Assembly (NCBI RefSeq): GCF_009740285.1
Contig: NZ_CP046566.1
Span: forward strand, 1,232,501 to 1,296,500
Origin: Phnomibacter ginsenosidimutans
Lineage (GTDB): Bacteria; Bacteroidota; Bacteroidia; Chitinophagales; Chitinophagaceae
Length of the DNA: 64,000 nucleotides
Direction: 5' to 3'
A model generated the notes under the pieces. It saw only the letters and a program-made list of their open reading frames with translations. It was not told the DNA's origin and did not search any database. Of the stretch, positions 47,541 to 50,008 are shown piece by piece. Positions within the stretch are counted from its first letter, which is position 1, and each line of letters starts with the position of its first letter. A program made the translations under genes and the position numbers.

Positions 47541-47582
47541 AAAAAAACATCCCACTGGCGAAAGCAGGTGGGATGTTTTTTT
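47541..47582. terminator. Bidirectional terminator between metalloprotease and gltX
   Basis: AAAAAACATCCCAC (47542-47555) pairs with GTGGGATGTTTTTT (47568-47581) around a 12-nt loop. It lies between two convergent genes. The 47492-47540 spacer contains a GGTTAATTAG-type repeat. Confidence 0.85.
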
Positions 47583-47648
47583 ATGGTTCAGTAAATCCTT
47601 GTAAAAGAAAAATGCAGAATCTATAAATTCTTCTTCTAGAATCTTTAT

Positions 47649-49994
47649 CTAAAAATTTTCTACAAGTGATTTGTGATAATGTTCGAAATCATCAATCAAT
47701 GAATTTAGATAATTGTCACTAGGAGTTGTTTCCTTGAGAAGGTAGAGGGTTAAGTGCAAATGCAATATCATTCTTTCAGAGATTGAGTTTATCCTCTTTT
47801 TTCTATCGAAAATACCTTCACTCATTAATTCGTGGGTTAGTATACTTACGTGGTCATACTTTGAGTAGTAGATATACTGTTCATAAACATCAAGGAGTCC
47901 CTTTAATGTAGGTTGTAAACTTGTTTCTTTAAAAAGATCATTTGCAAATGGTGCTTTCAAAAAAGGTTGTTTATTTGATTTTCCATTATTAGGATCATAA
48001 TCAGGACTTAGGAAACCCTTGTATTTATTTGTGAATTTTTCTATGAACTGGTCTGGCTCAGAAATTGCGTAAAATTTCACTTGATTTACTGTGGTAAAAT
48101 AAGCTAACGTTTGATTTAATCCATCAGCAAGACGGACCTTTGATGCATAATTAAGCTGTTTGTGGATTTCCTCTTCTGGAAGTTTTTTTTCTTTTCCTCT
48201 AGTAAAAATGTCTACTAAGTTCAATACTATCAACTGATCAAGAAGTACGGCTCTTGCGATAATTCCAAAGCCAAATTCGTTTTCAAATCGATTATTTACT
48301 TCACTCGAAAGAGTTGAGAGGCTAATGGAAATGGAATTCAATCTTCGGAGCAAAATGAGTGATAATAACTCTGTGTCTTTGACTTGTTTACCATTGAAGT
48401 GCTTAAATACATTCTCGGAGACTTGAGCAACAGTTTCAAATAAATTAATTGCCATTTCAGGTGAGAATGGTACAAGCTCTTTTAATGTCCTTCGAATTCT
48501 TGCAATGGTTGCTTCTTTACCAATAATGGAAGCAATGTCAAACACGGCCGGGCCAAACTTGCCACCCACCAGCATGATGCGGAAGGGCAACATCAGTTCG
48601 CCGGGCTTTAAGCCATTCACTGCAGCAATCTCTTTGAACGCATGTTCCAAATCAGCAGCCTGCCACAGTTGCGTCAGTTCATAGTTGCGGATGAGCTCAG
48701 TAAAGAACAAAGTCTTCTGTTCATTCCATTTTCCTTTGATGCTCTCGGTATCAATGCTGGCCGGTGCCTGAAAAAAGAAGCCAGCCTGCTCGTAAAAATC
48801 ACTAAGCAAAGTGCAGCGTTCTTTTACCAGGTCAATTACTTGCAGCAATACCTGCTCGTTACAGTCTGTAATGCCATGCTGCGCCAGTACTTGTTGCACT
48901 TCAGGAAGCAGACGCTGTGCAGTGCTGCGCTTTATCCATTCGTGGTTGTACCACTTGGCTTTTTCAAAATCAAACTGTGCACCGGCGCTGTGTACCCGCT
49001 CCATGCTGAAGCGTTGTACCATTTCATCGAGGGTAAAAATTTCCTGTCCGCTGCCATCGTTCCAACCCATGAGTGCCAGCAGGTTTACAAATGCCTCGGG
49101 CAAAAAACCTCTTTCGCGGAAGCCTTCGGTGAATTCATTTTTCACAGGGTCGGTCCAGTTCATGGCAAAAATAGGGAAGCCGTATTTGTTGCCATGGCGC
49201 TTGCTGAGCTTGGCACCATCAGGACCCATAATCAGCGGCAAGTGGGCCCATGCAGGCATGCTGTCTTCCCAGCCCAGTTTCTTCCAGAGCATCAGGTGAA
49301 CAGGCGCACTGCTCAGCCATTCTTCTCCACGAAATGCATGGGTGATTTTCATGAGGTAATCATCTACCACCACCGCCAAATGATAGGTGGGCATACCATC
49401 AGCTTTCAGCAATACTTTATCATCTACCTGGCTGGTATGCACATTTACTTCGCCACGCACCATATCCGTAAAACCAATCACTTCGTCTACCGGCATTTTG
49501 ATGCGTACCACGTAAGGAGTGCCTTCAGCAATCAATTCTCTGGCCGCTTCCAGCTCCATGTTCAGGCTGTTGCGCATGTGTTGTCGAACCTGCTGGTTGT
49601 AGGTAGGCGAAGGGTTCTCCGGCGTTTTGTATTGCTCCCGCATGGCTTCGAGCTCTGCAGGCGTATCAAATGCATAATAGGCATCGCCCTGCTCTACCAG
49701 GCGATGGGCATATTGCTGGTACATTTCCTTGCGTTCGCTTTGGCGGTAGGGGCCATAAGCGCCGGGCTTTACCACACTTTCGTCGGGTTCGAGGCCGCAC
49801 CATTTCAGGCAATCCAAAATATAGGCTTCTGCACCGGGCACGAAACGGGTTTGGTCGGTGTCTTCGATGCGCAACACAAAATCGCCTCCATGCTGGCGGG
49901 CAAACAGGTAATTGTACAATACGGTACGCACACCACCCAGGTGCAATCCACCCGTAGGTGATGGGGCAAAACGAACTCTTACTCTTTGACTCAT
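47649..49994 (-). CDS. gltX: Glutamyl-tRNA synthetase fused to an unknown ~276-residue C-terminal domain
   Basis: Residues 1 to about 505 are a complete class I glutamyl-tRNA synthetase: RFAPSPTGGLHLGGVRTVLY (HIGH motif), RIEDTDQTR, HLPLIMGPDGAKLSKRHG (KMSKS motif) and an anticodon-binding domain ending in FGPAVFDIASIIGKEATIAR. The frame then continues for about 276 residues to 781 with no stop. This part is mostly helical and rich in Lys, Asn, Ile and Phe; it is not a known synthetase domain. It has weak resemblance to DUF5677-type proteins (IIARAVLLDQLIVLNLVDIF; YYSKYDHVSILTHELM) and an RMILHLH string that could be a HEPN-like motif, both speculative. The coding DNA is AT-rich from about 48540 downward. 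An internal ATG at 48455 could also start the extension. ATG 49994 is chosen over TTG 50003. Confidence 0.9.
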   Translation of the reverse strand: MSQRVRVRFAPSPTGGLHLGGVRTVLYNYLFARQHGGDFVLRIEDTDQTRFVPGAEAYILDCLKWCGLEPDESVVKPGAYGPYRQSERKEMYQQYAHRLVEQGDAYYAFDTPAELEAMREQYKTPENPSPTYNQQVRQHMRNSLNMELEAARELIAEGTPYVVRIKMPVDEVIGFTDMVRGEVNVHTSQVDDKVLLKADGMPTYHLAVVVDDYLMKITHAFRGEEWLSSAPVHLMLWKKLGWEDSMPAWAHLPLIMGPDGAKLSKRHGNKYGFPIFAMNWTDPVKNEFTEGFRERGFLPEAFVNLLALMGWNDGSGQEIFTLDEMVQRFSMERVHSAGAQFDFEKAKWYNHEWIKRSTAQRLLPEVQQVLAQHGITDCNEQVLLQVIDLVKERCTLLSDFYEQAGFFFQAPASIDTESIKGKWNEQKTLFFTELIRNYELTQLWQAADLEHAFKEIAAVNGLKPGELMLPFRIMLVGGKFGPAVFDIASIIGKEATIARIRRTLKELVPFSPEMAINLFETVAQVSENVFKHFNGKQVKDTELLSLILLRRLNSISISLSTLSSEVNNRFENEFGFGIIARAVLLDQLIVLNLVDIFTRGKEKKLPEEEIHKQLNYASKVRLADGLNQTLAYFTTVNQVKFYAISEPDQFIEKFTNKYKGFLSPDYDPNNGKSNKQPFLKAPFANDLFKETSLQPTLKGLLDVYEQYIYYSKYDHVSILTHELMSEGIFDRKKRINSISERMILHLHLTLYLLKETTPSDNYLNSLIDDFEHYHKSLVENF

Positions 49995-50000
49995 AGGCGG

Positions 50001-50008
50001 CAAAGATA
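50001..50008 (-). promoter_or_regulatory. gltX -7 box next to the start codon
   Basis: On the minus strand this reads TATCTTTG (TAnnTTTG), ending 6 nt before the gltX ATG, so the transcript would have almost no leader. Confidence 0.5.

Follow-up and report, generated by a model that had tools for sequence, protein, structure and literature searches.

An extended glutamyl-tRNA synthetase

The gene for glutamyl-tRNA synthetase (gltX) in the 64-kb window, i.e. the whole stretch of DNA that was analysed, does not stop where the synthetase ends, which raises the question of what has been appended to this enzyme, where it came from, and what it may do there. On the minus strand, a single open reading frame of 784 codons (784 residues) extends from position 50003 to 47649 and comprises both gltX and a tail. 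In the synthetase part, the two Pfam domains that identify a glutamyl-tRNA synthetase (GluRS) could be found far above their cut-offs, namely the class I E/Q catalytic domain tRNA-synt_1c (residues 8–351, 307.3 bits) and Anticodon_2 (residues 372–506, 106.8 bits). The latter match reaches position 140 of the 141 positions of the profile, and the GluRS is therefore whole. gltX proper (48495..50003, minus strand), taken up to the end of the identity with close relatives, encodes a protein with 97% and 95% identity to those of the two closest relatives of the same genus (genomes G006 and G002), which have the normal end ...ATIARIKHTLSLL. The bacterial GluRS relatives examined share the complete catalytic and anticodon-binding domains, but end a few to some tens of residues past the latter, whereas the fused copy adds 268 residues of another family. 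Domains appended to tRNA synthetases are of a known kind.

A preliminary description of this DNA had reported a complete synthetase followed in frame by an unfamiliar domain of about 276 residues. The single 784-codon frame and the Pfam domains up to residue 506 bear this out, and the position of the cut was slightly off: counted from about residue 506 the tail has about 279 residues, and the DNA shared with relatives ends at 48495, followed by a linker (48456–48494) and the ATG of the tail (48453–48455).

Other GluRS-like matches in this genome (G000, a single 4.37-Mb contig) show 24–31% identity and are located in frames of 293 and 632 residues, which are read as GluQ-RS- and GlnRS-like. Since the search of G000 turned up no second full-length GluRS, we infer that the fused GluRS works, and that charging activity would be kept with the tail attached.

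Origin of the extension

DNA identity with G006 continues to 48495, stops there and restarts at 47585 (blastn breakpoints), delimiting an acquired segment of 909 bp (47586..48494) with a GC content of 0.33, which replaces 111 bp of G006. Up to its end, gltX aligns to G006 without gaps (204 of 206 identical). Across the boundary the GC content falls from about 0.50 to 0.31–0.35, with values of 0.507 for the gltX part and 0.327 for the tail, which had rightly been described as AT-rich; third-position GC is 0.55 and 0.29, respectively. The segment contains one gene only, and none of 2000 mononucleotide shuffles of the insert was open over its 281 codons. This tail gene (47649..48455, minus strand) has 268 codons, a TAG stop and its own ATG (48453–48455), which is aligned with the starts of separate homologues. 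It is preceded by a linker of 13 codons (39 bp; 48456..48494, minus strand). A three-frame translation shows this linker to be open in the assembled frame only, the two alternative frames being closed by stops at offsets 10 and 35. At the far end, identity with G006 restarts at a hairpin with A/T runs on both sides (47542..47581, with inverted copies at 47542–47556 and 47567–47581) that is conserved in all three genomes, G000, G006 and G002, and probably terminates transcription in both directions, for gltX as well as for its neighbour.

The tail gene is absent from all nine other genomes of the genus that were searched, several of them incomplete, and the fused state therefore looks derived; the insertion is probably recent. 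As the nearest sequenced relatives still have a plain gltX, the situations before and after the capture can be compared directly. We propose that an accessory gene, complete and belonging to a small family of helical Bacteroidota proteins, was inserted at the 3' end of gltX, that the insertion removed the last gltX codons and the stop and landed in frame, and that GluRS would now be encoded with a C-terminal domain of 268 residues. Both parts would be translated as one protein, in which the tail presumably folds by itself.

Capture of a gene had been among the origins suggested in the preliminary description, and it agrees with the finding that the acquired accessory gene is complete and stands on its own in the other genomes known to carry it. 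Loss of a stop through an indel is not what happened, given the replacement of 111 bp by 909 bp; a one-base error in the linker could still have joined the frames. A search of relatives for the same fusion or for a separate ORF beside gltX had also been suggested. The tail proved to be a separate gene in other genomes and the fusion to occur in this assembly only, as none was found among the genomes searched for gltX relatives or tail homologues (393 others of the family sample); the separate genes are located elsewhere than at gltX, and the tail gene is missing from the nearest relatives.

Site-specific integration was considered and rejected: a search for the 24-bp gltX end with up to 3 mismatches finds a single copy in the genome, and the segment has no integrase-sized second gene, hence no att pair was seen. 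A nucleotide donor was not found in 58 other genomes, which gave short matches only (best E 0.0025). The motif TAnnTTTG is used as a promoter consensus; it does not occur near the ATG of the tail, which is a weak test for a promoter of its own. When the linker is read as a borrowed GluRS C-terminus, 943 of 116,209 random open peptides score equally high, but its score of 1.7 is below those of all 20 relatives used (at least 4.5), and this derivation was judged weak.

A small family of helical proteins

Homologues of the tail, encoded by separate genes, were found in 11 of the 393 other genomes of the family sample (single-sequence search). Profile searches gave matches in 10 of 297 other genomes of the order sample, one spurious and four already seen, and in 2 of 394 other genomes of the phylum sample; the three samples overlap. 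A contig search identified nine homologue loci, three of them new, bringing the total to 23 distinct loci outside the window. The spurious match (L113 in genome G554), by eye a YebC-type protein, was removed before this count. Two homologues have internal stops (L049, L058) and one is truncated (L067), and these three were left out of the 21-row profile and tree; the order-level matches in G464 and G481 run over a stop near their end. Neighbouring genes may be missed at L057 and L058, as these are short contigs, and at L049, which lies at a contig end.

In an alignment of 11 rows, the tail shows 19–27% identity to its homologues, and residues L49, G64, R68, D73, Y194, S198, K199, Y200 and H202 are invariant. 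Two motifs characterize the family: R-x4-D, extending in the tail from R68 to D73 (48237..48254, minus strand), of which both named residues are invariant, and Y-x2-YSKYDH at residues 194–202 (47850..47876, minus strand), which is invariant or nearly so. The alignment, the tail's own start and the presence of both motifs place it in this 'YSKYDH' family, and it keeps the frame, the start codon and every family-invariant residue. The tail had no match in Pfam, PADLOC, NCBIfam or PHROGs and is an intact member of a Bacteroidota family that lacks a name in these four libraries. Weak matches of single homologues to Cmr5 and others were judged to be due to chance.

The AlphaFold model of the tail is all helical (pLDDT 81.3, pTM 0.82), in line with the helical character noted previously, and that of a Ferruginibacter homologue has a similar order of helices (pLDDT 83.8, pTM 0.84). 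A sequence search of solved structures with the tail gave no matches. The Foldseek comparison of a predicted structure, which the preliminary description had recommended, likewise ended without a match at E 0.001, both in PDB (models of the tail and of homologue L065) and in BFVD (tail only). The best fold matches from VIA were GPCR-like bundles, whose Z-scores of 9.2 and 8.8 do not rise above the noise level given for helical bundles. Neither these fold searches nor the library and structure-sequence searches supplied a biochemical function for the tail.

A weak resemblance to DUF5677 (PF18928) had been noted. Neither the tail nor the members of an 11-member tally matched this family in Pfam up to E 10, let alone at the gathering score. 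In an hhalign comparison of a 14-row DUF5677 alignment with the 21-row tail profile, a score of 28.7 was obtained (P 0.0043, probability 8%), above the controls of 10.5–14.2 for five small families, four of which have 2–6 rows, and 11.1–11.5 for reversed profiles. Both motifs of the tail family are aligned in this comparison; DUF5677 is also helical and has an R-x3-[ED] stretch followed by a Y...S-x3-H stretch, in the same order. The two families may be distant kin.

Phage or plasmid cargo was considered as a source, and no relatives of the tail were found in 50,697 phage or 72,556 plasmid records at E 0.01, and none of 25 pattern matches in viral contigs was a relative.

Gene neighbourhoods of the homologues

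The homologue is located upstream of rtcB on the same strand in five of the 23 loci (L052, L053, L055, L065 and L110), with rtcB directly next in four of these and an AbiV gene in between in L052. Pfam confirms RtcB in L052, L055 and L065, and additionally identifies TROVE with vWA_Ro60, WYL and AbiV in L052, and Band_7, RNaseH_like and AAA in L055; the remaining neighbour labels derive from tblastn similarity. RNase-H-like genes are present in all five loci, AAA genes in four, TROVE in three, and SPFH and WYL in two each. All five also contain tRNA genes according to ARAGORN (2, 9, 4, 9 and 14), and the Rfam tRNA model adds some more, including one that lies in L052 between the TROVE gene and the homologue. 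By comparison, a single tRNA gene is found in 3 of the 18 other homologue loci, and one in a single locus (L103) among seven rtcB loci in which rtcB has no homologue next to it.

A cyanobacterial repressor has been described that governs an array of tRNA genes and also rtcB, slipin and AAA genes (PMC10272220), and an rsr-rtcBA operon is switched on by tRNA fragments (PMC7790460). The five loci resemble these systems in their combination of rtcB and TROVE or SPFH with AAA or RNase-H-like genes and tRNA genes, and look like a Bacteroidota counterpart, of which the tail family would be an accessory. They are likely tRNA repair or tRNA supply loci. On the basis of the homologues upstream of rtcB and the tRNA genes in all five loci, we regard the tail as a probable part of a repertoire for tRNA damage or translation stress. 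By analogy with the known regulons, the most likely activity of the domain would be to handle or sense damaged tRNA or RNA, a proposal to which we give roughly even chances. The preliminary description had suggested an RNA-binding or RNA-cleaving module; the RNA-related part of this idea finds support in 5 of the 23 neighbourhoods, and this support comes entirely from gene context.

Several observations count against the RNA-repair reading. The other 18 loci lie away from rtcB, and on the 21-row tree the rtcB label requires four changes, at least three of them forced by well-supported branches. With shuffled labels, 186 of 500 trials give as low a count, so that the label shows no clustering beyond chance. 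Such a distribution fits repeated gain, an old linkage with several losses, or a slot that admits a variety of genes. Unlike the known operons and arrays, and unlike the five loci, the fused copy is not in an rtcB or tRNA-array locus: no tRNA gene was found in the 64-kb window, and the rtcB gene of G000 is solitary and far from gltX, so that the tail would here act in trans or independently.

Other neighbours of homologues include Ymh (L054), DUF6602 (L032), an RNase T / Prim-Pol protein (L048), Band_7 (L109) and DUF5677 (L051). In one rtcB locus with SPFH and WYL-like genes (L104:9767–17188), the slot upstream of rtcB has no member of the tail family and contains a 125-residue ORF and two nucleotidyltransferase-like ORFs, as judged by eye; this slot looks variable.

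Possible meaning of the fusion

It is directly established that a segment was inserted between intact flanks, that the synthetase is complete, and that the tail has its own start codon and the conserved residues of its family. We further propose, with less certainty, that proteins of the tail family deal with damaged tRNA or RNA or detect it, as accessories of loci where RtcB repair genes occur with tRNA arrays, and that the fusion would thereby place an RNA-stress domain on a tRNA-binding enzyme. This explanation as a whole, i.e. a captured accessory gene, one protein, and an RNA-stress domain on GluRS, appears to us evenly balanced between right and wrong; the occurrence of the fusion in one genome only, in an assembly with apparent frameshifts, counts against it. 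A tRNA-directed role of the tether itself is unlikely, and slightly more so is the specific version in which a tRNA-damage domain (cutter, sensor or end-handler) is delivered covalently to tRNA-Glu, so that GluRS would charge and also police its tRNA.

If gltX truly stopped within the 39-bp linker, with the tail as a separate downstream gene, one wrong base count would suffice to join the frames, and both other frames of the linker contain a stop. Of the 45 G006 ORFs with a match in the window, 4 occupy two frames there, compared to 2 of 49 window ORFs split in G006 in the reverse comparison, one of which is the same gene seen from the other side; the differences are single-base in length, two of the four in homopolymer runs. 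From some four errors of this type over an alignment of about 53 kb, the chance of one in the 40 critical linker bases is estimated as roughly 0.3%, against about 12% for a 13-codon linker being open and in frame by chance at this GC content, which favours a genuine fusion but does not prove it. A mis-join is unlikely, as both flanks are the expected neighbours, and the gap-free alignment of gltX also speaks against an assembly error, which we regard as improbable; with good confidence, the fusion is real in this lineage. It could nevertheless be incidental: a mobile accessory gene would have landed at the end of gltX with its frame open by chance, tolerated by GluRS, and the tail would work, if at all, as it does alone, or be on its way out. 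With a chance of about 12% for an open linker no selection is needed for the fusion, which is known from one genome only, and some homologues of the tail are themselves broken or truncated. The tail keeps its frame and all family-invariant residues, which argues against this reading, although a recent arrival would do so too; an incidental fusion seems somewhat unlikely to us.

The tail could also be a HEPN-type RNase, i.e. a toxin or abortive-infection effector, captured by GluRS. Its all-helical model fits the HEPN superfamily (AbiV, Ymh and others), members of which share the neighbourhoods of homologues: AbiV is encoded next to the homologue in L052 and Ymh, listed among HEPN families in PMC3710099, in L054, while the neighbours in L051 are a DUF5677 gene and a 256-residue ORF with RDEIMH, found by eye. 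The tail family lacks a conserved Rx4-6H, however, as R68 is followed by D73, and the string RMILHLH, previously put forward as suggestive of HEPN, is private to this protein, being absent from the 10 aligned homologues and at a position that is not conserved in the 11 rows. No HEPN family was matched in Pfam or PADLOC; HEPN is not among the fold matches displayed, which excludes nothing. We consider a HEPN RNase quite unlikely.

The donor family, nameless in the four libraries used here, draws attention to Bacteroidota loci in which an RNA ligase occurs with Ro60- or slipin-like proteins and tRNA genes. It offers a candidate, open to testing, for a component of bacterial tRNA repair that has gone unrecognised.

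Two further observations concern the window and one of the homologue loci. Four genes, at about 29.1, 36.3, 46.1 and 50.4 kb of the window, are found in two frames here and as single intact ORFs in G006, and are probable residual assembly errors or pseudogenes. In L051 (8071–10551), the tail homologue, the ORF with RDEIMH and the DUF5677 gene are arranged in a row on one strand, possibly as a conflict or RNase operon.
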